Of a stretch of DNA of 64,000 nt, positions 18,718 to 39,667 are shown one piece after another (positions within the stretch are counted from its first letter, which is position 1; each line of letters begins with the position of its first letter). The position numbers were made by a program, and so were the translations under genes. The notes under the pieces were generated by a model, which saw only the letters and a program-made list of their open reading frames with translations, was not told the DNA's origin and made no database searches. The DNA comes from Lachnospiraceae bacterium Zagget2. GTDB taxonomy: Bacteria > Bacillota > Clostridia > Lachnospirales > Lachnospiraceae. The stretch covers positions 30,880-94,879 of the forward strand of contig MSHD01000033.1 in assembly GCA_001941045.1 (NCBI GenBank). Reading direction: 5' to 3'.

Positions 18718-18766
18718 GATATCAGGCCTAAAGCTGCCGTTTCCGGAAGCTTTTTTCAAAAAAGAA

Positions 18767-18795
18767 AAACCAAAAGACGTTTTTCCCCGTCTTAT
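18767..18795 (+). promoter_or_regulatory. ECF-like island promoter P2: AAACC-N16-CGTCTTAT
   Basis: AAACC 18767-18771; CGTC 18788-18791. Confidence 0.8.
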
Positions 18796-18813
18796 TGATG
18801 AGAGGAGGGGAAT

Positions 18814-19167
18814 ATGGAAGGAGAGTACAGTAGACGTCTGGCAATGGCATACGCGGTCTTATCGGTGTGCCACATGTATGTTCCAAGCATTTGCTGCGAG
18901 AGCTACAAAGTGGAAAAAACCCTGGAGAAATATTATAATGAACTGTCGGATGACGAAGGAGATGAAATGAGCTGGCATGTGATCCAGGCTCTGACCCGCT
19001 GCGGACGCCATTATATCTATTCGCTGAATGAGCTGGATCTGACCCTGCACGTCCGGCGTTTGCAGGAGAAGCTGATCATTATCATCGAGTCGGACGAGAC
19101 GCCGTATCTGATCGCGCAGATCAGCGAGAAGAGCTCCGTGAGCTTTGAGCCGTCTCGAAACGCGTGA
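18814..19167 (+). CDS. Small hypothetical protein (117 aa)
   Basis: ORF with RBS-like GAGGAGGGG upstream and promoter P2. Confidence 0.55.
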   Translation: MEGEYSRRLAMAYAVLSVCHMYVPSICCESYKVEKTLEKYYNELSDDEGDEMSWHVIQALTRCGRHYIYSLNELDLTLHVRRLQEKLIIIIESDETPYLIAQISEKSSVSFEPSRNA

Positions 19168-19256
19168 AAAAATGCGGACAAAAACAGATTCTTGCGGACA
19201 GAATAACTGCATGATAAAATAGCCGACAGGAACGGCATATTTTTGGGAGGGAAAAA

Positions 19257-20024
19257 ATGTTATACTATTATTCCGACATCGGGCCAAAGCGGAGTCAGAA
19301 TCAGGATAATTTTTATGTGGACGGGGTAATTAATGAAAGGCAGCTGCCGTCCACGGAGGGAGAGATAAAGGGAAAGCCTGGCACGCAGGAGCCGAAGCTC
19401 TACGCCATCTTTGACGGGATGGGCGGGGAAACCGCCGGAGAAAAAGCTTCCTTGTGCGCCGCGCTGCTGGCGGAACGGATCTGCGGGGAGCTGCGACCTG
19501 CATTTACGAAGAGCGAGCTCCGGGGCAGCCTGGCGGCTTATTATCAGGCCTTTCTCAAGGCGGTGGAGGACTTCGCGGACGGCTACTTCGAGGTGTGCGG
19601 TACGACCTGCGCCGCAGCGTTGATTGATCAGAATCGCATGATTCCCTTCTGGATGGGGGACAGCCGCGTGTACCTGCTTCGGGACGGGGAACTGCGCCTG
19701 CTCACAAAGGATCACTCCATGGCGCAGACCAAGATCGACTGCGGCCTGCTGACGGAGGAGGAAGCGCGCCGTTCACGGAGCTGGCATGTCCTTCTGAGTT
19801 ATATGGGGGACGAGGATGCGGAGTTTTCCATCGGGGAGGAGACAGAGCTACGGCCGGGTGATCGCATTTTCCTGTGCTCGGATGGAATCACGGACGCATG
19901 TAGGGATGAGGAGCTGCGGGAACTGCTCGGGGGAAGTGTCGATGACGCGCTGTGCGTGCTGAAGCAGATCGCCGAGATGAGGGCGGACGACAACAGCACG
20001 TTCATACTGCTGGATATAGAATAA
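19257..20024 (+). CDS. PP2C-family Ser/Thr phosphatase
   Basis: SDIGPKRSQNQDNFYVD, AIFDGMGGETAGEKAS, FWMGDSRVYLLRDGEL, FLCSDGITDACRDEEL, DDNSTFILL. Confidence 0.92.
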   Translation: MLYYYSDIGPKRSQNQDNFYVDGVINERQLPSTEGEIKGKPGTQEPKLYAIFDGMGGETAGEKASLCAALLAERICGELRPAFTKSELRGSLAAYYQAFLKAVEDFADGYFEVCGTTCAAALIDQNRMIPFWMGDSRVYLLRDGELRLLTKDHSMAQTKIDCGLLTEEEARRSRSWHVLLSYMGDEDAEFSIGEETELRPGDRIFLCSDGITDACRDEELRELLGGSVDDALCVLKQIAEMRADDNSTFILLDIE

Positions 20025-20054
20025 AAAACAAAAAGAGCAGGAGAGGAAGGGGAC

Positions 20055-22712
20055 ATGGCACAAGTCAGGATTGGGGAACAGAAGATAAACAAAGGAGAAT
20101 TCTATTTTGTATCGGAGGCTTTGGGGGATGAACGTCTCGTAGCCCCATTCTTCGAGATGGAGGAAGCCTACTGGATCAATACGGAGGATTTCTATCAGAA
20201 GATGCGCCGCGCGCTTGAACTCGTGGCTCATGTGGAGGATATCCGGCTCTGGCCGGAGGACGGGGCGTATTCCAGCGAAGGCAGACTTAAGAAAATGGGG
20301 GAGAGGCTAAAGAAGGAAGCAGAGGGAAACGCATATCTGGAAGGAATATCCGGTACGCAGAAGCTGTTCTTTCTGTCCCGCTGCTGCAGCGAGGATTCTG
20401 ATGTCTTTTTCTTCCGAGCTGCGGTCAACGCTTTTGTGGGGGATAAGTATGTGAGCATCTGGACAGACCAGATGACAGGTGAGGTGCTGGCGCGGGAGCA
20501 GAGAAGGTGCGCATGGAAGCTGCGAAGACTGATTCTCGACCTCTATAACGTAACGAGTCGTCGGGGAGCGCATGTGGAGATCGGCGCTTCGGAAGACGGT
20601 CCGGACGCTCAGAGTGAAAATCAGGGCGTCCGGCGTCTGCGGGATCCGGAAGTCTGCCTGAAGGCATTTTATTATCTTATGCGTGGCTATTGTGAAAAAT
20701 ATTATCCGGACGCGTTCTCTTATAAGGATGTCCACCTGAACGACCTGATGCATCTGCCGATACGGGATTATCTTCCGGTAAACAAAGCGACGAGGAAAGA
20801 GCTCGGTTTGAAGCCGGTCACAGGAAAACGCTATTATGTCCGTGAGGATCGGGGGCAGGTCCGCTACTATCTTCTCTTTGAGGTGGAGGCTGGAAGGGCA
20901 GAGAACAGGGAGGTGGACATTCTCCGGAAGCTGTGGGAGGAGGACAATGACAGAACGCCGGACGCTATTATAAAATTCAGGGAGGAAATTCACTTAAATA
21001 ATGGCAGCAGCCATCTGGTATTCTCCCTGCCGTCCGCAGCGCTGGCGCTGAGCAGAAAGTTTCTGGCGGGGCGCAGCGTGACGGAAAAGGAGAAGCTTTT
21101 TGAGGATGCGCTGGACGCGGTGTCCTTCCTGCATAACAGCGAGCCGCCGCTGTATCATCGCGACATCTGGCCGGGAGCCTTTCTTGTGTGCCGGGTCAAA
21201 AACCGTTACAAGCTGTTCCTGGAGCACTTCGACTGCGTGAAGGACACGACGGCCGGCTACACAGAGTATGCAAAGGTTCGGAAGAATGAGGAGAAGACAG
21301 AGCGCGGACCGTATATCGCTCCGGAACGTCTGGGCTCGCAGGACAGCCCTGAGCATCCGGAAGCGTGGGAGAAGGCCGATCTCTATTCGCTGGGAAAGCT
21401 GGGGCTGTACATCCTGACAGGCGGGACGGATCTGAAGGATCTGGATCTCTATGAACAGGAAGCGCCCGGCTGCGTTGCCCGGATCCGCACCCTCTGTTCC
21501 GAAAATCCGGAGGATCGGGGAAGCCTGTCAGAAGAGGGGTCAGCAGAGAGTTTTGACCCGGGAGAGATGGACGAGGAGCAGAGAAATCAGTTTCTGCTGC
21601 AGCTTAACAGGATGCACAGACCTTTCCAGGGATACGAATTCCTGGAGCAGGACGGGGTGGTCAGGGAGCTGGGACGCGGCGGCTTTGGCTATGTCTATGA
21701 GGGAAGAGGCCGCGGAAATATCTTCTCCAACATATGCGCGGTTAAGGTCATCGGCTTCCGGGAATTTCCCGATGCCGGGGATGTGGAGGCGTTGGACCGG
21801 GAGATTCGCCTGCAGAGCACGCTGGCCTCCTCCTGCCGCAGAAATATTGTAGAAATTCTGGACGCGGCGGTACTGTATGTCTGCTTTGACCGCGATGGCA
21901 GGATCCGGCAGGTATCTGACAGGGAGAGGAAGGGCTGGCGCGTTTTCCAGTTTATCATGATGGAGAAGCTTCAGCCGGTGTTCGAGAAGGACAGAGGAGG
22001 AGCGCGGCTGACCGTGGACGCCCTGCGGTACTATGATGAGGAGAGTTTCCTCAAGTTCGCCCTGGACGTCGGGAACGCCGTGGAGACGGCGCACAGCCAT
22101 GTGGAGCTGTCGTCCCGGGAGGGACAGCCGGTGCTGCACAGGGACATCAAGCTGGAGAATGTATTCTACTCGGAAGGATACGACTTTTATAAGCTCGGCG
22201 ATTTTGGGCTGGCTCGGGTGTTGGAGGGCGGCTGCGCCAGCAGCAACGTGGGTACGGACGGTTATCGTGCGCCGGAGGTGGATTCGAACAGGGAGTATGA
22301 CCAGCGGGCGGATATCTATTCTTTTGGCATCCTGCTGTACCTGCTGCTCAACGATCTGAAATTCCCGGGGTCCGAAAGCTACAGGCCGAGATTTGGGGTG
22401 CAGTATCAGCCCGGGCATCCGTTGCCGGCTCCGGCTCATGGCTCCGCCAGACTGCAGCGGATCGTGTGCAAGGCCTGCAGCTTTGAGGAGGAGGAGCGCT
22501 ACGCCACCATCGGGGAGATGCTGGAGGAGCTGCGCAGGGCAGGAAAAAAGGAAAAGACAACACGGAAGAGAGTAGAGACAGAGCGGGAACAGGAGGCAGA
22601 GAATGCGTTGGATGCAGGCGCGCCGGAGCTGAGAATGCCCATGAGGCTGCGCGCCTCTGACGGCGTACGATCGTCAGAAGAAGGAACAGGGGGACAACAG
22701 TATGCACAGTGA
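20055..22712 (+). CDS. Dual kinase protein: N-terminal degenerate kinase domain + C-terminal canonical Ser/Thr kinase
   Basis: N-terminal half HRDIWPGAFLV, LEHFDCVKD (degenerate), APERL; C-terminal half LGRGGFGYVYEG, CAVKVIG, HRDIKLENVFY, GDFGLARVL, APEVD. Confidence 0.85.
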   Translation: MAQVRIGEQKINKGEFYFVSEALGDERLVAPFFEMEEAYWINTEDFYQKMRRALELVAHVEDIRLWPEDGAYSSEGRLKKMGERLKKEAEGNAYLEGISGTQKLFFLSRCCSEDSDVFFFRAAVNAFVGDKYVSIWTDQMTGEVLAREQRRCAWKLRRLILDLYNVTSRRGAHVEIGASEDGPDAQSENQGVRRLRDPEVCLKAFYYLMRGYCEKYYPDAFSYKDVHLNDLMHLPIRDYLPVNKATRKELGLKPVTGKRYYVREDRGQVRYYLLFEVEAGRAENREVDILRKLWEEDNDRTPDAIIKFREEIHLNNGSSHLVFSLPSAALALSRKFLAGRSVTEKEKLFEDALDAVSFLHNSEPPLYHRDIWPGAFLVCRVKNRYKLFLEHFDCVKDTTAGYTEYAKVRKNEEKTERGPYIAPERLGSQDSPEHPEAWEKADLYSLGKLGLYILTGGTDLKDLDLYEQEAPGCVARIRTLCSENPEDRGSLSEEGSAESFDPGEMDEEQRNQFLLQLNRMHRPFQGYEFLEQDGVVRELGRGGFGYVYEGRGRGNIFSNICAVKVIGFREFPDAGDVEALDREIRLQSTLASSCRRNIVEILDAAVLYVCFDRDGRIRQVSDRERKGWRVFQFIMMEKLQPVFEKDRGGARLTVDALRYYDEESFLKFALDVGNAVETAHSHVELSSREGQPVLHRDIKLENVFYSEGYDFYKLGDFGLARVLEGGCASSNVGTDGYRAPEVDSNREYDQRADIYSFGILLYLLLNDLKFPGSESYRPRFGVQYQPGHPLPAPAHGSARLQRIVCKACSFEEEERYATIGEMLEELRRAGKKEKTTRKRVETEREQEAENALDAGAPELRMPMRLRASDGVRSSEEGTGGQQYAQ

Positions 22713-23961
22713 AATTGAAAAACAGGAAAGGGACACGATCCTGCGCTGGCTTGGCGAGCAGGAGACCTTCTTCCCCGAATACCGGCCGGTATGGGAGGAG
22801 GACGGATACCGCGAGCTCTACCGGGACGATTACGGGATCGTCTATGATCTGCAGTACCGGGACGGCAGGACAGGCTGCGACTGTGTGCTCCGTGTAACTG
22901 GCTTTCGGGATTATTTGTTTTCTTTTAAGATGAGCAGGCTGGAAGAAGAGATGGAGAAGCGAAAGGAATGGACGGCACTTCATCCGGGCGAGGCCGTGGC
23001 AGTGAGGGAGACGGCAAGTCTGCCATATAAGGATGGAGAACGAATGATCTGCTTTCAGTTAACCGAAAGGCAGCAGCCTGTGCTCAGATGGAACGGGGAT
23101 ACGCCGTGGCTGACGGTGGACAGGCTGCGCCATTTTGACGAGGATGAATTCCTGCGCTTCGCGATTGATATTGGCAGCGCCGCTCTGGACTGGCCGGAGT
23201 CAATCTACAGTCACAATGAACTGTGCCTGGAAAATACATTTTATGACAGGGTTCATCACCGATACCTGATCGGAAATTTTGGCGATGCGCATGAGTCCGA
23301 TTGGGAAAAGGAGAAGAAGTTCCGGGAGATAGAGGACAGAGCAGACGAATTTCTGGGTCTGTATGGAGGGGGTGGCGAGCATTATTACTTCGCAGTCATG
23401 CTGTACCAGCTGCTGAATGACCTGAAACTTCCTGGTCTGGAAGAGGGCTGGATCGACCTGTCGCAGCCGCCCGCTCACGGAGGGAAGAGACTGCAGGAGA
23501 TTGTGCTGAAAGCCTGCCAATATACGAGAAGTTCCCGCCCGACCATAGGGGAAGTGCTGATTGAGCTGAAAAGCTGGAAGGAGGAGCGGGAGCGGCTGAA
23601 GGAGAAACGGACGGATACCTTCGGGCGCGCGCAGCTTTTGTATCGGCAGCAGGATTATGAGAACGCCGCGCTTCTCTGGTTCCTCTATGCGGAGGAAGGG
23701 GACGCGGAAGCACAGGGCCTGATGGGCTGGCTGTACGCCAATGGCCTGGGCGTGGAGGAGAACGCGGCGAGTGCGTTCCGGTGGTATCAGAAAGCAGCTG
23801 CGCAGAGCGATATGGACGCGGCTTTCAATCTGGGCGTGCTGTACGAGACGGGACGCGGCGTGGAGAGGGATTACAGCCTTGCCGTGAACTGGTACTCTGC
23901 CGCAGCGGCGCTCGGAGATTCGCAGGCGGAGGCGCGTGCCCGCGTATTGTCGACAATATGA
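22702..23961 (+). CDS. Pseudokinase with C-terminal Sel1 repeats
   Basis: HNELCLENTFY replaces HRDIKLEN; GNFGDAHE replaces GDFGLA; degenerate Gly loop YRDDYGIVYD; AQGLMGWLYANGLGVEENAASAFRWYQKAAAQ Sel1. Confidence 0.8.
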   Translation: MHSEIEKQERDTILRWLGEQETFFPEYRPVWEEDGYRELYRDDYGIVYDLQYRDGRTGCDCVLRVTGFRDYLFSFKMSRLEEEMEKRKEWTALHPGEAVAVRETASLPYKDGERMICFQLTERQQPVLRWNGDTPWLTVDRLRHFDEDEFLRFAIDIGSAALDWPESIYSHNELCLENTFYDRVHHRYLIGNFGDAHESDWEKEKKFREIEDRADEFLGLYGGGGEHYYFAVMLYQLLNDLKLPGLEEGWIDLSQPPAHGGKRLQEIVLKACQYTRSSRPTIGEVLIELKSWKEERERLKEKRTDTFGRAQLLYRQQDYENAALLWFLYAEEGDAEAQGLMGWLYANGLGVEENAASAFRWYQKAAAQSDMDAAFNLGVLYETGRGVERDYSLAVNWYSAAAALGDSQAEARARVLSTI

Positions 23962-23988
23962 TAATTTGCAGAGGAGAGAGGGCGTTTT

Positions 23989-25710
23989 ATGCGTGAAGAG
24001 CTGAGCAAAAGCAGCAGAGATCAGATTCTGCGCAGACTGAATGAGGAGAGATTGCCATTCCCGCGCTTTGCGTTTGCGAGGGAAGAAGAGGGTACCGGTA
24101 TGCGTGAGCTAGGGAGGGGAAGCTTCGGCATCACCTATGTGGGAGAGGGCAGAGATTCCCTCTCAGGCCTCACGCGCGCGGTCAAGGTACTCGGATTTCA
24201 GCAGGAAATAGACCCTGCCGAGATTCCGAAGATCAAAAGAGAGATCGAGCTACAGATAAGGCTTTTCTCCCGCTGTGGGCGCTATATTGTCAATATATTT
24301 GACGCGGGAAGTCTGTATGTCAGGCTGGATGAGGATGGTTCGCTGCTCAAGATTGTCGATCCGGCCGGGGCTGACATCGAATAGAAAGAGGACTATCGCT
24401 ATCTTCAGTTCATCAGCATGGAAAAGCTTGAGCCGGTGCTCCGGGGACACAGCCAGGACCCGCAGCTGACGATCGACGCGCTGCGAAGCAGTGACGAGGA
24501 CGAGGTGATAAAATTTGCGCTGCACATCGGGAGCGCACTGGAGGCGGCGCATCAGGAGAACATTCTGCACAGGGATATCAAGCTGGAAAATATTTTTTAT
24601 TCGGAGAGTACGGACAGCTATAAGCTGGGAGACTTCGGCCTGGCGAAGCTGGCCGAGGGAGGGACGACCAAGAGCAGGGTGGGAACCGGACCCTATCAGG
24701 CGCCTGAGGTGGATAATGTACATCGGTATGATCAGAGGGCGGATATCTACTCCTTCGGAATTACCCTCTACCGCCTGCTCAACGAGCTGAACTTTCCGGG
24801 TTCCGGACCGCTGAAATTCAGCAGAGAGGTCAAGCACAACCGGGACAGTCCGCTCCCGGAGCCGGCGCATGGATCCGACAGACTGAAACGGATCGTGTGC
24901 AGAGCCTGCAGCTTCCGACCGGAGGAACGTTACCAGACGATGACGGAGTTGCTGGACGCGCTTCGGACAGTGGACGCCACGTCGCGGCCGGAGCCGGAGG
25001 AGATCCTGATCAGTCGCTATGAGGCGTCGGAAAAGAAAGCGGAGCCGGAGGAGACGCTGAGCGTCGGAACAGGGGGCGCGGAGGAGGAAGGAAGAGAGCA
25101 GGAGCTTCTTAAGCATCTGCAAACATACGAGCAGTAGGCAGGACGCTGGAAGGAGGAAAGAAAGGAGCAGGAGGAAGCGCGGCGCCAGGAAGAGGAACGA
25201 GAGAGGAAAGAGAAAGAAGCGCGCCAGGAAGAGAGGAGAAAGCAGGAGGAGGAAGCGCGGCGCTTGAGAGAGGAGAAAAGAGAGCGGGAGGAAGAAGTGC
25301 GCCGGAAGGAGTGGAGAAAGCTGAAGGAAGAGGAGTTCTACAAAGAGAGAAGAGAGCAGCGGAAGGGTCGGCGCATCTGCGGCGCGTTGATGTTTGCGGC
25401 AGCGCTGATCGAGCTTTTCCTTCTGGTCGGTCATGAGACGCTGGGGATTTCCGGGCCTCTGGTGGGCGAGAATCTGTACTGGCTTGTCCTTCTGATCGGC
25501 TATGCCGGCCTGGTCCTGTATGTGAAGGACTTCAAAGCCACAGCGCTCAATGCGCATCTTGTAGTAAGCGTTCCCTTTGTGATGATTGTTTTGGGAATTA
25601 TTTTGTCTGTAAACAGTATCGTTAAGATTGTGGACGTGCCGGATATCCTGACGCAGCTGCATTTCGCGCGTACCGGACTGGTCAGTCTGCTGATTTTCTT
25701 TATCTGTTAG
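23989..25710 (+). pseudogene. Ser/Thr kinase with charged coiled-coil linker and C-terminal TM segments, interrupted by two in-frame TAG codons (24382-24384, 25135-25137)
   Basis: Segments 23989-24384, 24385-25137 and 25138-25710 are in one frame; LGRGSFGITYVGEGR, HRDIKLENIFY, GDFGLAKLAEGG; no frameshift over about 574 codons. Confidence 0.75.
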
Positions 25711-25733
25711 ATGCAAAAAGGAGGAAAAACAGG

Positions 25734-26471
25734 ATGGATCGAGAGAAAAAAGAGCAACTGATGGATGCGTTTCGCCGCTTTCAGATGGGCGAGAACGAGG
25801 CCTTTAACGAGGTGTACAGCCTGACGCAGAAGCTTGTACGCTACGTCGCCTGGTCTGTCTGCCATGATTGGGAACTGGCGGAGGACGCGCTGCAGGAGAC
25901 GTATATTTCCATCATACAGTATAAGGACAGGCTGGAAAATCTGGAGGCGATCGAGGGCTGGATCGGAAGAATCGCGGGCAATAAGGTGCGGGATATGTGG
26001 AGAAAAAATGCAAAGACGACGCTGCTCTCTGAGGAGGAGCAGTTCCTGTTCGACGAGCAGGAGGAGCCGGATGTGCTGAAGCTGCCGTGGGAGGCCGCGG
26101 ACAGCAGGGAGACGCAGCGGCTGATCCGCGACATCCTGGATCGGCTCCCCGAGGAGCAACGGCTCGTGCTGACGGAGTGCGAGTACAATGGCCTGAAGGT
26201 GCGCGAGGTGGCGGAATACTATGGCGTCCCGGAGGGAACGGTGAAGACCTGGCGCAGGAAAGCGAAGGCCGCGGTGAAGGCGGAGGTGGAGCGCCTGTAC
26301 CGGGAAGAGGATACGAGGCTCTACACGGTGCTCGAGGATATGGCGATCTACTGGGCGATCCATTTTGCAGTTCTGGAGACGGAGGAGAGAGAGATGCCGG
26401 CGAAGGTCGCGCAGTGCCTTGCATCTCTGGAGAGGGAAAAGACGCCGGAGCGGGAGCGTCTGCTGCACTGA
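25734..26471 (+). CDS. ECF-type RNA polymerase sigma factor with C-terminal extension
   Basis: Region 2 (AFNEVYSLTQKLVRYVAWSVCHDWELAEDALQETYISIIQY, WIGRIAGNKVRDMWRK), region 4 (LDRLPEEQRLVLTECEYNGLKVREVAEYYGVPEGTVKTWRRKAKAAVK). Confidence 0.9.
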   Translation: MDREKKEQLMDAFRRFQMGENEAFNEVYSLTQKLVRYVAWSVCHDWELAEDALQETYISIIQYKDRLENLEAIEGWIGRIAGNKVRDMWRKNAKTTLLSEEEQFLFDEQEEPDVLKLPWEAADSRETQRLIRDILDRLPEEQRLVLTECEYNGLKVREVAEYYGVPEGTVKTWRRKAKAAVKAEVERLYREEDTRLYTVLEDMAIYWAIHFAVLETEEREMPAKVAQCLASLEREKTPERERLLH

Positions 26472-26496
26472 CAGGAAGGCTCAGGAGGGAAAAAGC

Positions 26497-29400
26497 GTGG
26501 AACAGTCAAGGCTTGCGAAAAAAATGGAGAGCTACGCGCAGCTTTATGTGCGAAGCGACCGGGGAGGGGCGCTTCCGACGCCCCTGTCGGAGGGCTATAT
26601 TCTGTATGTGATCATGCGCTTCGCAGATCCGGAACCGCTGAAGGAGGATCTGGCTGTCTGCGGGGCGGAGGAACTCGACGGACTTCGCAGACGGCTCGCG
26701 GAAGACAGACCCTTTACCGTGACGAGACTCGAATTTCGGGAAATGCTGAATAAAGCGCCCGCCCCGGGCAGGGAGGACGACGAGCGCTACAGGCGCGTGA
26801 TCGTGAGGATGGCGCAGAAAAAGGCTGTGGAGCGGGGGCAGGAGAAGGTCACCATCGACTGTTATCTTGACGCGATCCTGGGAAATCCGGACGCGCTGGT
26901 GCGGAGGATTCTGCGCCGCTCTGTGCCGACTCCCGTTCCCGCGCCTGCGTCTGTACCGCTCCCCGATATGGGATGCATGAAAGCGTTTTTTTCCTTTTCC
27001 GGCGAAAAGCAGAGGCTCCGGAAAAGCCTGCGCGGACGGATCATCGGGCAGGACGAGGCCGTGGACGCTTTTGCCGATGGAATCCTCGCCTCCCGGATGT
27101 TTCAGGAGGAGGGAAATGTGAGGCCGAAGGGGCTTTTCGTTTTCGCTGGCCCTCCCGGCGTGGGGAAGACTCTGCTGGCTGTGGAGGGCGCGCGGGAACT
27201 CGGCATACCGGTCCGGCGTTTTGACATGAGCGAGTACGCCCACAGCGAGTCCTATGTGGGGCTGACTGGGAGCGATAAGGTGTGGAAGGGTGCGGAGAGA
27301 GGCAGCCTGACCTCCTTCGTGGAGGACTGCGCCGAACAGAAGAAGGAGTGCTTTCTGATTTTTGATGAGATTGAGAAGGCGCACCCGAACACGATCCATT
27401 TGTTCCTGCAGATTCTCGACGCGGGGCGGCTGACGGACGCTTTCACGAAGCGGACCGTCTCCTTTGGCAATTCCTTTATTGTGTTTACGACGAATGCGGG
27501 CAGGAGCCTGTATGAGGAGGGAAAGCAGCCGGCGAAGAACCTGGCGAAATCCGTGATCATGGACGCGCTGCGAAACGATATCAATCCCGCGACGGGCGAA
27601 GCCTTTTTCCCGGAAGCGATCTGCTCCCGGCTCGGCACAGGCTGTGTCGCGATGTTCCGGCATTTGTCGGTCTACGATCTTGTCTGCATCGAGGTCGCGG
27701 AGATGAATCGCTACGCGCGGATGTTTCAGCGCAGCTATGGGCCGGAGGTCGTTGTAGACGAGCAGATTCCCTTCCTGCTTCTCTTGCGCCTCGGCGGGGA
27801 GTGCGACGCGAGGACCTTTCGTGCGGAGGGAGAGCGCTTCATCAAAAACGAACTTTTCGCGCTGGCAGAGACAGCCAGCGAGTCGAAGGTCGTGTGCTCC
27901 CTGAAAAAGAATAACCGGATCCATTTCAAGGTACACGAAAACAGCCGCCGGGAGCTCGCGCGCCTGCTCAGCGGCACGCAGGAAAAGGAGAGCATCCTGC
28001 TGGTTTCCGAGAACAGCGGGAACCTGGAGGAATGCGGGAAGCTGCTGGAGGGCGGCGCGTACAATATCGTCCCCGCCGACAGCTACCGCAGAGCTGCGGA
28101 AATCATAAGGGAGGGGGAGATCTGCCCGGCCGTGCTGCTCGTGGATCTGCCCGACGAGGAGATCCTGGAGGGGACGAGGCGTTTTGTCGACCGTTCGCCG
28201 CTTCGCGCAAGCTTTTATGATTCCTTCCTCCATTTTCTGGAAAACGCGGCTGCGGAGCTGCCCGGGACGTCGATCTATGTCCTGATGTTTGAGGGCTGCT
28301 ATGACCCCGCTGACCTGGAGCGGGAGCTCTCCTGCCGGGGTGTGGCGGGTCTGATCGACGTGCGGAACCGAAGACAGATCGCGGCGGAGATCTACGGCTG
28401 TATCGAGAGAAACCGCATGGGCCAGATCGCGCACCGCTTTGCCCGGGAGAAGAAGGGGTTGTCCTTTACGACCTCACCGAACGATGAGAACGGGGAGCTG
28501 GCGATCCGCCTGCGCGGCTTTCGGGTGGAGACGCTGGTGTCGGGGAGTGACAGCGACGCGCTGCTCTCTGACGAGCGGATGCCCTCGGTTACCTTCGACG
28601 ACTACATCGGTGGTGAAACGGTTAAAAATGAAGTGAGGGCCTTTGTCAGCTACCTTAAAAACCCGGGGAAATACAGGAACAGGGGTGATGCGCAGCCTCG
28701 TGGGATCCTGCTGTATGGCCCGCCCGGTAAGGGCAAGACCTTTTTCGCGAAGGCGTTGGCGCATGAGGCCGACGTGCCTTTTTTCCCGGCCAATGGCAGC
28801 AGCTTTATCGATCAGTACGCAGGAAGCGACCCGAAGGCGATCCGCGAGCTCTTCCACAAGGCCCGCAAGTATGCGCCGTCCATCATTTTCATCGATGAGA
28901 TCGACGCGATCGCGGGGAGGAGGACCGGCGAGTACCGGGCGGCGGAGGAGACGTTGAATATGCTCCTGTCAGAGCTGGACGGCTTTGACGCGGACGGCGG
29001 CAGGCCGGTCTTCTTCGTCGCCGCGACGAACTATGGGATAGACCAGAATTCCGCAACGGCGCTGGATCCGGCGCTGGTCCGGAGGTTTACAAAGACGATC
29101 TATGTGGGCGAGCCGTCCTGGGAGGAGCGTCGGGAATTTATCAGAAGGAGCGTCGAAAAATATCCGGGTGCTTTGAACGCTGCGGAGCTGGACGGACTGG
29201 CGGCCAGAAGTGCCGGACTGAACTACAGTGGCCTTAAGAATATCGTGGAGGCTGCTGCGCGCGAAGCGCAGAACCGCGAGGCTGCGGTCACGGCGAAGCT
29301 GCTGGATGACGCGTTAGAAACCTGGCTCTTCGGGGAGAAGAAGGTCTGGGACGCGGTGGCTATGGAGCGCAGCGCCTGGCACGAGGCCGGCCATGCCTTA

Positions 29401-29883
29401 ATCTACCGGAACGCGGGCCGTACGCCGGAGTATATCACGATCGAGGCGCGGGGTAATTACGGCGGCTATGTCATGTCAGCGGAGCCTGATGAGGGAACGG
29501 TGACGAGGGAGGCGCTTCGCACGCAGATCCGGGCCAGCCTGGCCGGCAGGGCGGCGGAGCTGCTCCGCTATGGGAAGGAGGCGGGGCTCTCCGTTGGTCC
29601 GGCCGAGGACTTCCGGCAGGCGGGAGCTCTGATCAGTGCCTATGTCTGCGAATACGGGATGGACGAGCGGCTGGGTCTGATCTATGTGCCGGATTTGCAG
29701 CATCCGCCGGAGGAGGTCCGGAAGCGGATCAACGAGCTGATGAATGAATTTCTGGAGGAGACGATTCATGAGCTCGAGGGCGTGAAGGACGCGCTGCAGC
29801 GGCTCGCCGATGCGCTGCTTCGGAAAAACAGGATGAATGCCCGCGAGATCGAGGAGGTTCTGGGGGAAGCGAAGCATGTATGA
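26497..29883 (+). CDS. Fusion ATPase-protease: ClpA/B-type AAA+ - receiver-like linker - FtsH-type AAA+ - M41 metalloprotease
   Basis: GTG start at 26497 with RBS AGGAGGGA; Walker A GPPGVGKT and GPPGKGKT; Walker B LIFDEIEKAHP and IIFIDEIDAIAG; HEAGH zinc site; PAEDFRQAG third-ligand region. Confidence 0.88.
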   Translation: MEQSRLAKKMESYAQLYVRSDRGGALPTPLSEGYILYVIMRFADPEPLKEDLAVCGAEELDGLRRRLAEDRPFTVTRLEFREMLNKAPAPGREDDERYRRVIVRMAQKKAVERGQEKVTIDCYLDAILGNPDALVRRILRRSVPTPVPAPASVPLPDMGCMKAFFSFSGEKQRLRKSLRGRIIGQDEAVDAFADGILASRMFQEEGNVRPKGLFVFAGPPGVGKTLLAVEGARELGIPVRRFDMSEYAHSESYVGLTGSDKVWKGAERGSLTSFVEDCAEQKKECFLIFDEIEKAHPNTIHLFLQILDAGRLTDAFTKRTVSFGNSFIVFTTNAGRSLYEEGKQPAKNLAKSVIMDALRNDINPATGEAFFPEAICSRLGTGCVAMFRHLSVYDLVCIEVAEMNRYARMFQRSYGPEVVVDEQIPFLLLLRLGGECDARTFRAEGERFIKNELFALAETASESKVVCSLKKNNRIHFKVHENSRRELARLLSGTQEKESILLVSENSGNLEECGKLLEGGAYNIVPADSYRRAAEIIREGEICPAVLLVDLPDEEILEGTRRFVDRSPLRASFYDSFLHFLENAAAELPGTSIYVLMFEGCYDPADLERELSCRGVAGLIDVRNRRQIAAEIYGCIERNRMGQIAHRFAREKKGLSFTTSPNDENGELAIRLRGFRVETLVSGSDSDALLSDERMPSVTFDDYIGGETVKNEVRAFVSYLKNPGKYRNRGDAQPRGILLYGPPGKGKTFFAKALAHEADVPFFPANGSSFIDQYAGSDPKAIRELFHKARKYAPSIIFIDEIDAIAGRRTGEYRAAEETLNMLLSELDGFDADGGRPVFFVAATNYGIDQNSATALDPALVRRFTKTIYVGEPSWEERREFIRRSVEKYPGALNAAELDGLAARSAGLNYSGLKNIVEAAAREAQNREAAVTAKLLDDALETWLFGEKKVWDAVAMERSAWHEAGHALIYRNAGRTPEYITIEARGNYGGYVMSAEPDEGTVTREALRTQIRASLAGRAAELLRYGKEAGLSVGPAEDFRQAGALISAYVCEYGMDERLGLIYVPDLQHPPEEVRKRINELMNEFLEETIHELEGVKDALQRLADALLRKNRMNAREIEEVLGEAKHV

Positions 29884-31312
29884 GCTGAGCAGGGAGGAAG
29901 AGATCAATCTGCTGATGGAGCTGAACCGGCGCAGGCTGCCTTTCCGGCAATACGAGTTCTGTGCGATCAACGGGGAACCGGAGCTGGGGACCGGGGGATC
30001 GGGCGTGGTCTTTGCCCTCAGAAGCAGGAAACGCCGCCATCGGGAACACTTTGCGGTCAAGGTGATCGGTCTTAGGGGAAATATTTACCGGAAGGACGCC
30101 GAACGGCTGGCGGAGGAGATCCGGCTGCAGCGCGAGGTACAGGCGGGCTGCCCGTATGGCGTCGTGGAGATCCTGGAAGAGAAGTCCCTCTATGTGCGCT
30201 TTGACGAAAACGCAGGGATCCTGGACGTCGCCGCGGAGGAGCCACCAGAGAATCTGCGGGACTATCGCCTGCTGCTGTTCATCCGGATGGAACTGCTGGC
30301 TCCGCTGCTTACCTGGGATCAGAACCGGTGCCCCCGGGTCGCGATGACCGGTGAGTGGATGGATTCCGGGGAGGAAGAGCCAGATTTCCGGTCCGACGGG
30401 GAGGAAGCAGTGCTTAATTTCGCGCTGGATATCGGGGAGGCGATCCTGGTGGCTCATGAGCACAGGCCGCCGATCCTGCACCGGGATATCAAGCTGGAGA
30501 ACACCTTCTATTATCCGGAGACAAATCACCATATGGGGCGCAGCGGCTTTAAGCTCGGAGATTTCGGCCTGGCCCGGATCACGGAGGGCGGAGGCGCCAG
30601 CACCAGAGGCGTGGGGACGACGGGTAATATCGCGCCGGAGGCGGAGGGCCGGGGCCGGGACGGAGATAAATATGATGAGCGGGCGGATATCTATTCCTTC
30701 GGGATCATGCTGTATCTGCTCCTGAATGATCTGAACTATCCGGGCTCCGACCGCTATCGCTGTAATTGGGAGCTGCAGTATCTGCATCCGGAAAGCCCGT
30801 TTCCGGAGCCCATTCACGGCTCGCCAGAGCTGCGAGGGATCGTACTGCGTGCATGCAGCTATCGCCCCGAGGATCGCTATCAGAGTATGGCGGAACTGCT
30901 GCATGAGGTCGGGCAGCTGAAGGAATACAGATATCCGGGATCCTGCATGCGTCCGGAAGTGGAATCGTTTCAGACGAAGGGGCAGGAATGGGTATATCTT
31001 TATTACCGTGGCGACTCTTGGTGGGAACTGGCAGGGAATCTGGAATACTGGGCGGCCAGATTTTACCAGAGAGGAGAATATCGAAGCGCGCTTGTGCTGA
31101 CTCGGTATCTTGCAGGGAGTGACAATCCCTATGGACAGAGGATGCTGGGGGTACTCTATATGTATGGCGCAGGTGTGGAAGCGGATCTCGAGGAGGCGTT
31201 CTCCTGGCTTGCGAAGGCTGCAGCGCAGGGAGACGACATGTCCGCAAAATTGCTGGAAGGGCTGCACGTGGAACGATCGGATATACAGGAGGGAGACATA
31301 AGAGATGCCTGA
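29876..31312 (+). CDS. Ser/Thr kinase with C-terminal Sel1-like repeats
   Basis: ELGTGGSGVVFALRS, FAVKVIG, HRDIKLENTFY, GDFGLARITEGG, ...NPYGQRMLGVLYMYGAGVEADLEEAFSWLAKAAAQ. Confidence 0.85.
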   Translation: MYELSREEEINLLMELNRRRLPFRQYEFCAINGEPELGTGGSGVVFALRSRKRRHREHFAVKVIGLRGNIYRKDAERLAEEIRLQREVQAGCPYGVVEILEEKSLYVRFDENAGILDVAAEEPPENLRDYRLLLFIRMELLAPLLTWDQNRCPRVAMTGEWMDSGEEEPDFRSDGEEAVLNFALDIGEAILVAHEHRPPILHRDIKLENTFYYPETNHHMGRSGFKLGDFGLARITEGGGASTRGVGTTGNIAPEAEGRGRDGDKYDERADIYSFGIMLYLLLNDLNYPGSDRYRCNWELQYLHPESPFPEPIHGSPELRGIVLRACSYRPEDRYQSMAELLHEVGQLKEYRYPGSCMRPEVESFQTKGQEWVYLYYRGDSWWELAGNLEYWAARFYQRGEYRSALVLTRYLAGSDNPYGQRMLGVLYMYGAGVEADLEEAFSWLAKAAAQGDDMSAKLLEGLHVERSDIQEGDIRDA

Positions 31313-32879
31313 GATGAGAAAGGAGAGCCGCGACCGCTTCCTGCGGGAGCTTAACGAGCGCAGGATCCCCTTTGAACGTTATGAATTTGTTCAGGATGAA
31401 ATGGGCATGAAGGAACTGGGAGGAGGCAGCTTCGGCATCGTCTATGAGGGGAGAGGGCGCGAATGGCTTGCCGGAAATGACTGCGCGATCAAGGTGCTTG
31501 GATTTCGGGAGACGGTTTACCCGGATCAGATCGGGCAGATTGAGAAAGAAATTCGCCTGCAGAACGAGCTGTACGGGAGCTGCCCGGGCGGCGTCGTCCG
31601 GATCGAGGACGCGAAATTCCTCTACGTGCGCTTTGGTGAGGAGGGCGAGCTGCTGGAGGTGGCCGGGGACAGGCCGGAGGAAAAAGGGGAGGAGTATCAG
31701 ATATTCGTCTTCGTCGTGATGGAAAAGCTCCGTCCGCTGCTTGGCGGCGCCAGGAGCGGACGGCCATATCTGACGAATGAAGCGCTGGCCGCCTGCGAGG
31801 AGAGCGAGCTTCTGAAGTTCGCGCTGGAGATCGGAGATGTGCTCCGGACGGCGCATGAGCACAAGCCGCCGATCCTGCACCGCGACATCAAGCTGGAAAA
31901 TATTTTTTACTCCGAGGTCTATCAGGTCTATAAGCTCGGTGATTTCGGGATAGCCCGGGCGGCGGAGGGCGGAAACGCCAGCACCCGGGGAGCGGGGACC
32001 TGGGGGAATATCGCGCCCGAGGCGGAGGACTGGGGAATCGGGGGCTCCGGCTACGACCAGCGCGCGGATATCTACTCTTTCGGCATTATGCTGTATCTGC
32101 TCCTGAACGATCTGAACTATCCGGGCTCCGATGAATACCGCTGTGAACGCCACGTCCAGTACAACCAGGATGCGCAGCCACTCCCCGAGCCCGCGCACGG
32201 CTCGGAGGAGCTGAGAAGAATCGCGCTGAAAGCCTGCAGCTACTGGCCGGAGGACCGCTATCAGTCGGCGGCAGAGCTGCTGAAGGACCTGCGCGCCGCG
32301 CAGGAGTGGGCAACGTTTCCGCAGGAGCCTGCCGCTCCCGCATGGCCGGAGGAAGAGGAAGGGATCGTAGTGAGCCGCTATGGAGAGCCGGAGCCGACTG
32401 AGGAAGCAGAGGAATTTCCTGCGTCGGTACAGTCGGAGGAAGCGTCCGGGGAGCGGGGAGAGCGGCAGGACGGCTCACCGCGTGCGTTTCCCTTTGACAC
32501 TGCGCGGATGGAGCCGATCTGGAGCTGGATACCGGCGGGCTTCCTGCTCTGCGTGATCGGCTCGGGCATGTCCTTCTCCATCGATCGCTTTACGCCGAAC
32601 CTGCAGATCGCGCTGGGAGTCGCGCTGGGATACACCGGCATGAGCCTGATCGTCGAGGCGGTCGCGTCCTGGACCTTCCGTCTGCTTTTTAACGCGGCCC
32701 GATTCTGCGTGGTCGTCTGCGGCCCGGCCTGCATGCTTCTGCTTGGCTGGCTGTCTATCTGGTATCAGTGGACGATGATAAGGGGAAGCGTTCTGGAATA
32801 TAGCGGAATCGTGAGTTTTCTGCTCGTCGGTCTCGTGAACCTGGTATTCCGGCCCGGCAGGAAAGCGAAAAAAGGATAG
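31305..32879 (+). CDS. Ser/Thr kinase with C-terminal TM domain
   Basis: LGGGSFGIVYEGRG, CAIKVLGF, HRDIKLENIFY, GDFGIARAAEGG; hydrophobic C-terminal segments. Confidence 0.87.
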   Translation: MPEMRKESRDRFLRELNERRIPFERYEFVQDEMGMKELGGGSFGIVYEGRGREWLAGNDCAIKVLGFRETVYPDQIGQIEKEIRLQNELYGSCPGGVVRIEDAKFLYVRFGEEGELLEVAGDRPEEKGEEYQIFVFVVMEKLRPLLGGARSGRPYLTNEALAACEESELLKFALEIGDVLRTAHEHKPPILHRDIKLENIFYSEVYQVYKLGDFGIARAAEGGNASTRGAGTWGNIAPEAEDWGIGGSGYDQRADIYSFGIMLYLLLNDLNYPGSDEYRCERHVQYNQDAQPLPEPAHGSEELRRIALKACSYWPEDRYQSAAELLKDLRAAQEWATFPQEPAAPAWPEEEEGIVVSRYGEPEPTEEAEEFPASVQSEEASGERGERQDGSPRAFPFDTARMEPIWSWIPAGFLLCVIGSGMSFSIDRFTPNLQIALGVALGYTGMSLIVEAVASWTFRLLFNAARFCVVVCGPACMLLLGWLSIWYQWTMIRGSVLEYSGIVSFLLVGLVNLVFRPGRKAKKG

Positions 32880-32900
32880 AAAGTATAAAAAAGGTGTAAA

Positions 32901-32928
32901 AAGACGGTCGCGAAGACCGTCTTTTTAT
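32901..32928 (+). terminator. Terminator after the kinase operon
   Basis: AAGACGGTC-GCGAA-GACCGTCTT TTTAT. Confidence 0.85.
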
Positions 32929-32958
32929 ATGTGTCAGAAATCTTTTCAAACTGCTGTA

Positions 32959-32987
32959 AAACCAATTGGAAATCTCCTGCGTCTTAT
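32959..32987 (+). promoter_or_regulatory. ECF-like island promoter P3: AAACC-N16-CGTCTTAT
   Basis: AAACC 32959-32963; CGTC 32980-32983. Confidence 0.8.
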
Positions 32988-33007
32988 ATACAGAAAGGGA
33001 GATGAAT

Positions 33008-33226
33008 TTACAGGACCTGGTCGTCCTCGGAGGGCTGATAGCGGACGATATCCTCCACATTACAGTCCAGAATGCGGCATAGATCATTCAGCGTTTTGGT
33101 GGAGATGTCCTGGTTGTGCTTCAGCCTGTGCAGGGTGCTGAAAGAGATGTGATGTGTATTCGTCAATGTGTACCAGTTCTCGCCGGATTTTTTAAGCGTT
33201 TCCCAGAAAGGAGTGTAATCTATCAT
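33008..33226 (-). CDS. XRE-family HTH regulator (72 aa)
   Basis: HHISFSTLHRLKHNQDISTKTLNDLCRILDCNVEDIVRYQP. Confidence 0.75.
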   Translation of the reverse strand: MIDYTPFWETLKKSGENWYTLTNTHHISFSTLHRLKHNQDISTKTLNDLCRILDCNVEDIVRYQPSEDDQVL

Positions 33227-33281
33227 GTCCCACCGCCATATTTAGGATGATTTTATGGTAAATAAGAAATTTTAACTTGTA

Positions 33282-33303
33282 TATATTCGTAAAAACGAAT
33301 ATA
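33282..33303. promoter_or_regulatory. Inverted repeat TATATTCGT-AAAA-ACGAATATA, candidate operator
   Basis: Perfect 9-bp arms between divergent XRE gene and GrpE-like gene. Confidence 0.6.
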
Positions 33304-33346
33304 CTGGAAAGGTATGGACAGAGAATTTTGTCAAAAGGAGAGGAAA

Positions 33347-33982
33347 ATGGAAGAAATAAAACGGGAAGATCCGGAGATCGAAGAGACAGATGCAAAAGAG
33401 CTGCCAGATGAGGAGGAGATTGCAGAGCAGCCGGATGGCGAAGAGATCCAGGAGGCAGAGACGGGGGAAAAGGAAGATGTATACCGGATTTTACTGGAAA
33501 AGATGGACGAGCTCCAGAACCTGTTCGAGCAGCGGCTCCGTACAGATGAATATAAGAATCGGCTGTTTGATCAGCTATATGGGGATCTGAAGGAATACCA
33601 GAATGATGTGGTCGCATCGGTCACGACGCCGATGCTGATGGAGATCATCTCGATTCTGGACAGAATGAAAAAGCAGAGCCCTTCGCCGGATCCGGACGAT
33701 TATCCGGGAGCATACGCAGCGCTGCTCCGAAACTGGAACAATGCGGTGGAGGATCTGGAAGATCTGTTATATGCGCAGGATACGGAGCCCTACTCGGTGG
33801 AGGGAGACGTGCCGGACACGAAGCGGCAGAAGATCGTGAAGACGGTCGCTACATCGGACCGGAGCCTGGATAACCAGATCGCGCAGCATCTGTCCGGCGG
33901 CTATGTCAAGAATAACAGGATCATAAAATTTGAGCGCGTCTCAATTTATAAATATCAGGAGGAAAAAAATGCAGAAGAATAA
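33347..33982 (+). CDS. GrpE-like nucleotide exchange factor
   Basis: Acidic N-terminus, coiled-coil YRILLEKMDELQNLFEQRL, C-terminal GGYVKNNRIIKFERVSIYKYQ; directly before Hsp70 gene. Confidence 0.6.
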   Translation: MEEIKREDPEIEETDAKELPDEEEIAEQPDGEEIQEAETGEKEDVYRILLEKMDELQNLFEQRLRTDEYKNRLFDQLYGDLKEYQNDVVASVTTPMLMEIISILDRMKKQSPSPDPDDYPGAYAALLRNWNNAVEDLEDLLYAQDTEPYSVEGDVPDTKRQKIVKTVATSDRSLDNQIAQHLSGGYVKNNRIIKFERVSIYKYQEEKNAEE

Positions 33983-35672
33983 AGTATTCGGAATCGATCT
34001 GGGGACGACCTATTCGTGTGTGGCTTATGTGGACGATTTTGACAAGGCGTCCGCCATCAAGAACAGCGAGGATGAGACGACGACGCCGTCCGTTATCTAT
34101 TTTGAGAATGAGGACAGTCAGATCGTCGGCAAAGAGGCGAAGAATTACGCGGTCATGGAACCGGAAAATACGGTTTCTTTCATCAAGCGCGAGATGGGCA
34201 AGGATTATCGCAGAAAGATATACGGCGTGGAGTATACGCCGCAGGAGCTCTCTGCGAAGATTCTGACGAAGCTCGTGAAGGACGCCAACGCCTCGCTGCG
34301 GGAGCAGGGTGTGCTCAAGCCGGAGGAGCCGGATATCAAAAAGGCCGTCATTACCTGTCCGGCTTACTTCGGACTGGCAGAGAAGGACGCGACGCGCGCG
34401 GCGGGGGAGATTGCCGGGCTGGAGGTGCTTGACATCATCAACGAGCCGACCGCCGCAGCCATCCATTATGGAGTGCTGAACGGGCAGGAAAATAAAAAGG
34501 TCATGGTCTACGACCTGGGCGGCGGTACCTTCGATGTGACGATCATTGAGATACAGGGAGGCAACGCGATCAGCGTCGTCTGTACGGGTGGCGACCCGGA
34601 GCTGGGCGGAAAAGACTGGGATACCGCGCTGGTGGAGTACCTGAAGGAACGCTGGAAGACCGAGATGAATACTTCCGAGGACATCACGGACGATCTGGAG
34701 ACGCTGAGCAGCATGATGGATTCAGCGGAAAATGCGAAGAAATCGCTGTCCACGAAGGAGCAGACGCCCATACTCGTGAATTATGAGGGAGAACGCATGA
34801 AGCTGAAGCTGACGCGCGACGAGTACGACGACATCACGCGCAGCCTGTTACAGAAGACGATCGACCTGACAAATCGCTGCCTGGAGGCCGCCGCGCAGAA
34901 GCGGGATAATCCGGTGCAGCTCGAGGACATCGACGAAATCCTGCTGGTGGGAGGATCCTCCCGGATGCCGCAGGTGCAGAAGATCATGGAGGAAGTGTAT
35001 CAGAAGCCGGTGTCGTTGTTTGACCCGAATGAGGCGGTGGCGAAGGGAGCGGCGATCTACGCGCAGAAGACTGATCTGATCAATGTCATCACCGAGGAGC
35101 TTGCCCGCAAGACAAACAGGAAGGTGGAGGACGTCAAGGCGCAGATCGACCAGGGCGCGGACGTGAGCCTCATGGCTGAAGAGGCGTCGGTTTCGCTGTC
35201 GAGCATGGGCGAGACGGGAAGACTGACGACGATGCGGATCAATAACGTGTCCAGCCGGACCTACGGGATCAAAGTGTGGGATCCGCACAGGGAGAAAGAA
35301 TTCATTAGCAATTTCATTTTCCAGAACGATCCGCTGCCCCGTAAAGAGACAAAAACCTTTTACACAACTGCTCCAAATCAAAATCAGGTCGACCTGGAGC
35401 TCTATGAATCGACGGGACACGACGAGGAGATACGCAATCTGGAGAACGCGACGCAGATCACCGTGTTCGCCATGAAGTTTGTAAAGCGGGTGCCCATGAG
35501 TACGGAGGTGGTGATCACGCTGCGGCTGGAAAACTCTGGTCTGATCTATGTGGACGCGGAGGAGATGAAATTTCATTCAAAGCTGAACGCGACCTACGAT
35601 GTGAAGAACGCACTCTCTGAGGAGGAGATGGACGAGGCGAAGGACAGGGCGCGCAGAGCCACCATAGATTAA
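33969..35672 (+). CDS. Hsp70 family protein (DnaK paralogue)
   Basis: FGIDLGTTYSCVAYVDD, TCPAYFGLAEKDATRAAGEIAGLEVLDIINEPTAAAIHYG, VYDLGGGTFDVTIIEI, LVGGSSRMPQVQ. Confidence 0.93.
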   Translation: MQKNKVFGIDLGTTYSCVAYVDDFDKASAIKNSEDETTTPSVIYFENEDSQIVGKEAKNYAVMEPENTVSFIKREMGKDYRRKIYGVEYTPQELSAKILTKLVKDANASLREQGVLKPEEPDIKKAVITCPAYFGLAEKDATRAAGEIAGLEVLDIINEPTAAAIHYGVLNGQENKKVMVYDLGGGTFDVTIIEIQGGNAISVVCTGGDPELGGKDWDTALVEYLKERWKTEMNTSEDITDDLETLSSMMDSAENAKKSLSTKEQTPILVNYEGERMKLKLTRDEYDDITRSLLQKTIDLTNRCLEAAAQKRDNPVQLEDIDEILLVGGSSRMPQVQKIMEEVYQKPVSLFDPNEAVAKGAAIYAQKTDLINVITEELARKTNRKVEDVKAQIDQGADVSLMAEEASVSLSSMGETGRLTTMRINNVSSRTYGIKVWDPHREKEFISNFIFQNDPLPRKETKTFYTTAPNQNQVDLELYESTGHDEEIRNLENATQITVFAMKFVKRVPMSTEVVITLRLENSGLIYVDAEEMKFHSKLNATYDVKNALSEEEMDEAKDRARRATID

Positions 35673-35693
35673 AACAGAAGAGGGAGATAGATA

Positions 35694-37688
35694 ATGAGGG
35701 ATTTGGCGATAGAAGATATTGTCGAAGTGTGCCAGAGTCTGGGCATGAAAAGAGCATACTACAAGGAGATGGATCCGGCGAAGCTGGACAGGAAGATCAG
35801 TCAGCTGGAGAAGAAATACGCGGTGAATCCGCCATCTCCCGCAGAGCTCTCGCGCCTGGAATCCATGAAGGCAGTCCGACGTGTCCTGGGCGAAGGCGGG
35901 CTGGAGGAGGCGGTCGGCAGAGAGGAGCTGGACCGCTTCCGAAACGAGCTGATCCAGCAGTATACGATCCTGAAATGCAGCGAGGCGAATGCGGGGCGGC
36001 CGGATGCGGAGCTGCTGGACCAGCTGGACGACCGGTTTTTCAATATCTTTTCGCCGGAAGAAATCCGAAAATCCGTCGGGGCGGCCGGCGGGAATGCCGG
36101 TGCGGGAAAGGATACCCTGTTTCCGGAGGAGTTTCTGAGGCTGATACAGGACAGGCTCCTAGGAAGGCAGAATTATCAGAATTACCTGCTGCTGCAGCAG
36201 AAGATCCGGGTCCCCGGCTTTTACTGGGAGGGAAATAATTTTCAGACTCTGAAAAGAGAGATCGCCCGCGTGGCGAAGGACAATGTCATGCAGCGTAGCA
36301 ACGGGACTCCGAATGCCGTTGAAGATGTGACGTCCGCGCTGGACAGGGAGCTGCTGCCGTATCTGGAAAGCGGGAAGATGCGGGACGCCGGGATGCGAAG
36401 GGCGGGGCTGGCCGTGCTGCAATACCCGCTGCTCATCGAAAAGCTGCTGGCCGGCCGGTCCGTCACGAGCAGCCTGAATCTGAGCGATCCCAAAATGCGG
36501 ACCTTCGTGCTGGATCCGCTCAGAGAGGAGCTGCGGCTTTCTGCAGCCGTATTTGACCGGGTAATGGAGATGATCGCGCAGCCTCTGAACATCATCCTCC
36601 CGAGAGCGAAGGAAGCGGAGCCGGAAAGAGAAAGTCATAGCCGGAAAAAGGAAACGCGCAGCGAGCAGCCTGAGAGAACAGAAAAATCACGTTCGGAAAG
36701 GCAGAATAGACAGGAAGAACGGCGGCAGGAGTGGAAACGGAGGAGACAGGAAAGAAGAGAGGAGAGAGCGTCGCGGGGCTGGCTGTACAACCTTTTGTAC
36801 TTCTTCAGCAAGGTGGTTATTGCATTCGTACTCTTCGTTGCTATCTTCGTATGGGTAGCGGATTTTGTTGACCGGCAGACAAGCTATCAGTCTCTGGTCA
36901 AGGATGTGAGCGGAGAAGTGCTGGCGGAAGCGGTACATACGGTGGATGGGGAGGAATATGAGTTCCCGTATTCCGCGGACTATATTCAGGATATTGTGAC
37001 CGGCGAGAGCGAAGGCAGCGCTGCGAAGACGCGTGTGACGCCGGTGACGTATCGCCTGGACGATGGCCACGTCTGCATAGAGGTGGAGGAAAATCTGTGC
37101 GTGGATTCCGATGGCGTCTACGCGGAATATGTCAGCTGGAACATCCTGAGCATAGACGCGGAGGGTCTTGCCGCAATCCCACATGCCGTGGACAACATAT
37201 GGTATGAGGCGCAGGCCGGGTTCGAGGAGGATACATCAGAGATTGAACTGGGAGAATCCGAGATCGGAGAGAAGAAAAGTGTCACCTCCGTGACGTATCG
37301 GCAGACGACGGAGGATTTCAACGTGGTCGTGCAGGAGGAGCTGATACTGGACGCGTCCGGCTTCCGCGCGGAGCGCGTGAACACGCAGATCGAGGGGATC
37401 AACATCATCGGAAGCTGGATATCGAGCTTCAACCGCACTGGCGAGGTCTATGGAAACTATTGGGACGTTACTTCCTATAATGAAGAGACGGGCGCCTGTG
37501 ATGTGGTGGAACTATATAGACACTCAGATGGACATATTGGCGGTTCCCGCTATGGCGAACTGGATAAGGATACAGGAGTATTCGAGGTCGATTCGGTGGT
37601 CTTTACCTACAATCCGGCGTACCGCACCTTCACATATGAGAAAAATAGAGAAGGCTGGTATCTGGAGCGGCAGGAGCTGATCGAGTAG
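35694..37688 (+). CDS. Large hypothetical membrane protein, single TM with extracytoplasmic C-terminal domain
   Basis: 664 aa; charged KKETRSEQPERTEKSRSERQ...RRQERREERAS then hydrophobic FFSKVVIAFVLFVAIFVWVADFV. Confidence 0.6.
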   Translation: MRDLAIEDIVEVCQSLGMKRAYYKEMDPAKLDRKISQLEKKYAVNPPSPAELSRLESMKAVRRVLGEGGLEEAVGREELDRFRNELIQQYTILKCSEANAGRPDAELLDQLDDRFFNIFSPEEIRKSVGAAGGNAGAGKDTLFPEEFLRLIQDRLLGRQNYQNYLLLQQKIRVPGFYWEGNNFQTLKREIARVAKDNVMQRSNGTPNAVEDVTSALDRELLPYLESGKMRDAGMRRAGLAVLQYPLLIEKLLAGRSVTSSLNLSDPKMRTFVLDPLREELRLSAAVFDRVMEMIAQPLNIILPRAKEAEPERESHSRKKETRSEQPERTEKSRSERQNRQEERRQEWKRRRQERREERASRGWLYNLLYFFSKVVIAFVLFVAIFVWVADFVDRQTSYQSLVKDVSGEVLAEAVHTVDGEEYEFPYSADYIQDIVTGESEGSAAKTRVTPVTYRLDDGHVCIEVEENLCVDSDGVYAEYVSWNILSIDAEGLAAIPHAVDNIWYEAQAGFEEDTSEIELGESEIGEKKSVTSVTYRQTTEDFNVVVQEELILDASGFRAERVNTQIEGINIIGSWISSFNRTGEVYGNYWDVTSYNEETGACDVVELYRHSDGHIGGSRYGELDKDTGVFEVDSVVFTYNPAYRTFTYEKNREGWYLERQELIE

Positions 37689-37709
37689 CGGCGAGGAGGA
37701 AGAAAACAA

Positions 37710-38591: not shown

Positions 38592-38627
38592 CGACGCGCG
38601 GTCAGAATAAAAAAATTTGAATTTCGG

Positions 38628-39663: not shown

Positions 39664-39667
39664 AAGA

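Follow-up and report, generated by a model that had tools for sequence, protein, structure and literature searches.

A gene in Lachnospiraceae bacterium Zagget2 raises the question of whether a Clp-type motor, an FtsH-type motor and an M41 metalloprotease can serve together in one soluble polypeptide. We analyzed a 64,000-nucleotide stretch of contig MSHD01000033.1 (the window; Table 1). The initial annotation had read from its letters a 1128-aa protein lacking N-terminal transmembrane helices, with complete Walker A/B sets of a "ClpB-type" and an FtsH-type AAA+ module, a receiver-like central segment, and an HEAGH zinc site with a downstream acidic ligand. It had called this architecture unusual, leaving a well-described family of identical architecture or a frameshift or assembly artefact as other explanations. 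The length was exactly as annotated from GTG 26497, the likely start codon, with AGGAGG 8 nt before it, and the frame was uninterrupted from TTG 26365 to the stop at 29883. No transmembrane helix was found in the whole protein because hydropathy was too low everywhere (maximum 19-residue Kyte-Doolittle mean, 1.34). The same genome encodes three separate FtsH-like and two Clp-like proteins, so the fusion gene is an extra and not a housekeeping copy.

Table 1 Features of the fusion gene and the surrounding island in the window.
Feature	Position	Strand	Basis or remark
Inserted block between addB (13181–16576) and addA (45040–48591)	16577..45039	+	addB/addA order in congeners
PP2C-type phosphatase	19257..20024	+	
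Double Ser/Thr kinase	20055..22712	+	
Kinase-like protein with Sel1 repeats	22702..23961	+	kinase-like part by eye only
Sigma-70-family (ECF-like) factor	25734..26471	+	25 nt upstream of fusion gene
AGGAGG ribosome-binding site	26483..26488	+	8 nt spacer to GTG; sequence
Fusion gene, N-domain / Clp-D2 AAA+ / receiver-like / FtsH AAA+ / M41	26497..29883	+	1128 aa
N-domain, residues 1–172	26497..27012	+	low-confidence model, pLDDT mostly <60
Clp-D2-type AAA+ module, residues 172–485	27010..27951	+	Pfam, alignment, pLDDT mostly >85
Receiver-fold domain, residues 490–650	27964..28446	+	AF2, Foldseek; Asp550 kept, acidic pair lost
Beta hairpin joining receiver-like domain to second AAA+	28453..28533	+	AF2 strands 653–664, 667–679
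FtsH-type AAA+ module, residues 694–945	28576..29331	+	Pfam, alignment, Foldseek
M41 zinc protease, residues 957–1121	29365..29859	+	Pfam, alignment
Ser/Thr kinase with Sel1 repeat	29876..31312	+	ATG overlaps fusion stop (ATGTATGA)
Ser/Thr kinase with C-terminal hydrophobic segments	31305..32879	+	hydrophobic segments by eye
GrpE-like protein	33314..33982	+	
DnaK/Hsp70	33972..35672	+	
ClpP-family protease	42937..43554	+	1.8e-52

Pfam placed AAA_2 at residues 209–364 (8e-29), AAA at 737–871 (4e-48 for the whole protein) and Peptidase_M41 at 957–1121 (7e-21). The NCBIfam scores were 307.7 bits for FtsH (cut-off 600), 150 for ClpA and 123.6 for ClpB (cut-off 1232), all far under the curated cut-offs, and thus no curated family spans the whole architecture. 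A PDB profile search and Foldseek found no PDB chain matching the protein whole; the complete model gave only partial matches against the PDB and viral models, the top ones mostly FtsH-type. Such an architecture was also not found in the open-access literature searched.

Residue roles in both motors and the protease were assigned by aligning them to the known motifs of Clp and FtsH proteins; two complete Walker A/B sets of different clades were borne out. The Clp module has Walker A GPPGVGKT (218–225), Walker B at 286–291 (DEIEKAH), sensor-1 N333, the arginine finger R378, sensor-2 R439 of the D2 small domain, and a pore loop, KVWKG, where relatives carry Y, F or W at the aromatic position. 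The annotated Clp kinship could be refined: the first AAA+ is a Clp module of the D2 type, for which ClpA scored higher than ClpB (150 against 124 bits). The FtsH module has Walker A GPPGKGKT (741–748), Walker B at 798–801 (FIDEID), the pore-loop Tyr, and arginine fingers R862/R863 in RRF. The M41 site comprises HEAGH (962–966) and, as the third ligand, Asp1038.

The suspected receiver-like segment was seen in the AF2 model as five alternating strands and helices, (beta-alpha)5, at 498–650. Modelled alone, this domain had a pLDDT of 78 and matched receiver domains throughout the 50 PDB matches listed by Foldseek, among which the best E was 4e-6 and the TM on target reached 0.84; RssB (3eq2) was among its fold matches. 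Sequence did not prove a receiver: in the PDB profile search NtrC1 scored no better than E=0.7, and hhalign gave no significant similarity to true receivers; the fold is settled by structure only. The acceptor-position Asp is mostly kept in the family (Asp550 here; Glu in member L100), whereas neither the acidic pair nor the Lys remains, and we therefore call the domain a pseudo-receiver. Its phosphorylation is unlikely because the acidic pocket is absent.

A profile built on the family-specific linker (residues 345–690) matched 6/392 genomes of the order, 3/388 of the class, 3/398 of the phylum and 4/17 of the genus, with the window's own genome counted every time. One further member came from a full-length search of 249 genomes of the taxonomic family, and a public MAG gave L010. 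In all, about 1,450 genomes were searched and 13 besides the window's own carried the fusion, as did one MAG record; the carriers are spread over several Bacillota families. The L102 and L108 matches were truncated at contig ends. A tree, whose rooting is not fixed and in which several members are long-branched, set the FtsH modules from 13 members apart from 33 FtsH sequences by a 100/100 branch. All 12 members with an extracted FtsH module had a shortened SRH (RRF), and 75/76 FtsH sequences had R[PA]GRF, which identifies the RRF form as a private mark of the fusion family. For the closest long pair (L098/L099), dN/dS was 0.068 overall, 0.076 in the middle domain and 0.047 in M41. With few scattered matches, the 100/100 grouping and low dN/dS, the fusion gene belongs to one rare, patchily spread family under purifying selection; the architecture is thus rare, as annotated, and not unique, because relatives in other genomes share it. 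A phage or plasmid origin was rejected: tblastn against plasmids and phages gave no record covering 80% of the query, the matches listed being only ordinary Clp-like ones, and three scans of viral contigs found no close relative.

The N-domains vary and are swapped among members. A ClpC-like N-domain precedes the D2-type module in L010, L098, L099, L102 and L108 by profile (6emw ClpC, E=6e-6). The RNase H1 N-terminal, hybrid-binding domain stands in L105 and L119, and by sequence also in L117 and L121, and the N-domain is absent from L104 and L109. Searched alone, the window protein's N-domain, which is divergent and poorly modelled, did not match the ClpC N-domains (Clp_N repeats, PF02861) that the family profile had hit.

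Compared with known systems, the C-terminal 435 residues resemble FtsH (TIGR01241, PF01434), the best structural match, in joining AAA+ to M41 with HExxH...D. Unlike FtsH, the fusion protein has no N-terminal transmembrane helices, carries an extra Clp AAA+ and the receiver-like domain in front, has RRF instead of RPGRFD, scores half of the FtsH cut-off and lies outside the canonical FtsH group. It shares with ClpA/ClpC/ClpB (Hsp100) a D2-type AAA+ with pore loop, Arg finger and sensor 2, and in relatives the ClpC-N-like N-domain, but it has one Clp-type ring, neither D1 nor M-domain, and its protease in cis; no ClpP-binding [IVL]G[FL] loop was seen in the protein. ClpB (TIGR03346), by contrast, has two Clp AAA+ modules and a coiled-coil M-domain. 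Lon, one AAA+ ring with a Ser-Lys protease, is likewise a single-chain AAA+ protease, without kinship beyond AAA+. A review limits protease and motor in one chain to FtsH and Lon, with the protease elsewhere a separate subunit, including for two-module Clp unfoldases, and describes the FtsH-like family as membrane-anchored (PMC7226402). On both points the fusion family departs from this picture. Should it prove active, it would be an anchor-free FtsH-type protease of natural origin in which motors from two clades work one after the other, and would allow direct tests of unfolding and threading shared between two unlike AAA+ rings and of proteolysis redirected by a receiver-fold collar or swapped N-domains.

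We consider it reasonably probable that the protein is a two-ring AAA+ metalloprotease of the cytosol, under signal control, whose N-domain recruits the targets to be degraded, although its activity, substrate and role are what we infer. As its rare Bacillota relatives keep the catalytic residues, it is probably a real degradation machine. One chain would then carry what Clp systems split between proteins, and six chains would probably stack as N-domains, Clp-D2 ring, receiver-like collar, FtsH ring and M41 ring. The N-domain would recruit a substrate or an adaptor, the first ring would unfold the substrate, the collar may couple or gate both rings, and the second ring would thread the substrate into the protease ring for ATP-dependent cleavage.

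The gene's surroundings suggest how such a protease may be controlled. It lies in a 28-kb block that is an insertion, because addB and addA are adjacent or overlapping in five congeners (L130–L134); the GC content of the block is 0.553, the same as the left flank (0.556). The kinases and PP2C phosphatase encoded there may regulate the protease, whose task would be to remove chosen targets for regulatory purposes as part of an accessory island for stress or conflict. The first candidate substrate is the sigma factor encoded just upstream, because its gene adjoins the fusion gene. ClpC recognizes arginine-phosphorylated proteins (PMC5506225), and receiver proteins are known proteolysis adaptors, the response regulator RssB delivering a sigma factor to ClpXP (PMC7226468). 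By analogy with ClpC and RssB, phospho-signal control of the fusion protease is plausible. RssB and CpdR likewise place AAA+ proteolysis by ClpXP under a receiver fold, but the receiver-like domain here is built into the protease chain and has no acidic pocket. Beside relatives, L098 has FHA-kinase, PP2C and kinase-WD40 genes and L010 a kinase-WD40 gene; further signalling neighbours are TIR and KAP genes in L100/L112 and standalone receiver genes in L117, L119 and L121. The kinase island was absent in the stretch examined for L103, L104 and L109; as neighbours differ between members, kinase control may not hold for the whole family. Tentatively, the family may form a distinct AAA+ protease class, a self-contained cytosolic double-motor machine of Clp ring, receiver collar, FtsH ring and M41 chamber, whose N-terminal sensors can be exchanged and which serves Bacillota defence or conflict islands based on phospho-signalling as their executioner.

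It is rather doubtful that the protein is instead an anti-phage or conflict-island effector, in which kinases, phosphatase and swappable N-domains would detect infection, RNA:DNA hybrids being one possible cue read by the RNase H1-type domain, and trigger degradation of host or phage proteins. The exchange of N-domains between relatives, the sporadic distribution, the insertion between addB and addA, the TIR, TIR-WD40, KAP and (by eye) DUF4062-like neighbours in L100/L112 and an Mrr-type nuclease beside L101 are in its favour. However, similarity in PADLOC was mostly generic AAA+, best to IetA of IetAS (NF042959; 116.3 bits against a cut-off of 510), the viral contigs held no close relative, and the window island also encodes chaperones. 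No IetS-like subtilase was present among the neighbour genes scanned. FtsH ternary conflict systems (Kaur et al. 2020, PMC7159879), which have a dual FtsH AAA+, the first inactive, with MoxR and vWA partners, are similar accessory systems placing FtsH-type AAA+ with signalling or conflict genes. A system of that type was rejected, as neither a MoxR nor a vWA gene was found beside the fusion gene; an inactive first FtsH AAA+ is likewise absent from the protein.

The chaperones could point to a general quality-control disaggregase and protease working with the downstream DnaK/GrpE, as in ClpB-DnaK disaggregation followed by degradation; GrpE and DnaK lie in the same-strand gene run and a Clp-D2 AAA+ is on the entry side. 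We regard this as unlikely, since the protein lacks D1 and the middle domain with which ClpB carries out DnaK-dependent disaggregation, DnaK/GrpE were not recognized in the flanks of relatives, and other genes of this genome encode FtsH and Clp.

Catalytic positions were kept across nine aligned members, except the FtsH pore loop, whose aromatic is missing in L101 and L103. Of the 13 members examined at length, all have HExxH and 12 have both canonical Walker A motifs; the third-ligand Asp was retained across aligned members. The short member at L109 (9573–12458) has degenerate FtsH Walker A/B motifs (GSADAGKV, LIEKFD) and keeps HEAGH. Because of these losses in L101, L103 and L109, the second motor is not required in every member. 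The same losses would fit a proteolytically idle remodelling ATPase or scaffold in which the FtsH and M41 domains are kept structurally, but the retained HExxH and Asp and the M41 dN/dS make this very improbable. An assembly chimera or frameshift fusing clpB-like and ftsH-like genes has a negligible chance even though the 66-contig assembly of the source genome has an estimated contamination of 3.35%, as independent homologues in other genomes and MAG L010 share the architecture and purifying selection maintains the linker domain; this artefact was rejected.

Several further features of these loci were recorded alongside the proposed two-ring protease. In the window, a Ser/Thr kinase gene at 23989–25137 (+) is broken by one in-frame TAG (24382–24384), a nonsense mutation or sequencing error because sibling island kinases read through the position. 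At the island's right end (42937–44870), the ClpP-family gene is followed by one for a VirD4/TraG-like coupling protein that shares 32% identity with a protein encoded next to the L101 family member. The L101 region, with its conjugation coupling protein, carries the Mrr-type restriction endonuclease domain (6968–7960) two genes downstream of the member. A standalone receiver gene (L117, 17318–17740; L119, 19332–19796; L121, 17613–18116) adjoins, or is one gene from, RNase-H1-type members, with RNase H genes nearby; in L119 the two are separated by an RNase HII-like gene. Paired related proteins of about 155–175 aa adjoin the fusion gene in two distant members (L100, 12937–13956; L103, 1374–2315), and the one scanned had no Pfam match. 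The 1613-aa member in L105 (9127–13968) has two FtsH-type AAA+ modules and a Clp module, and thus three motors per chain.
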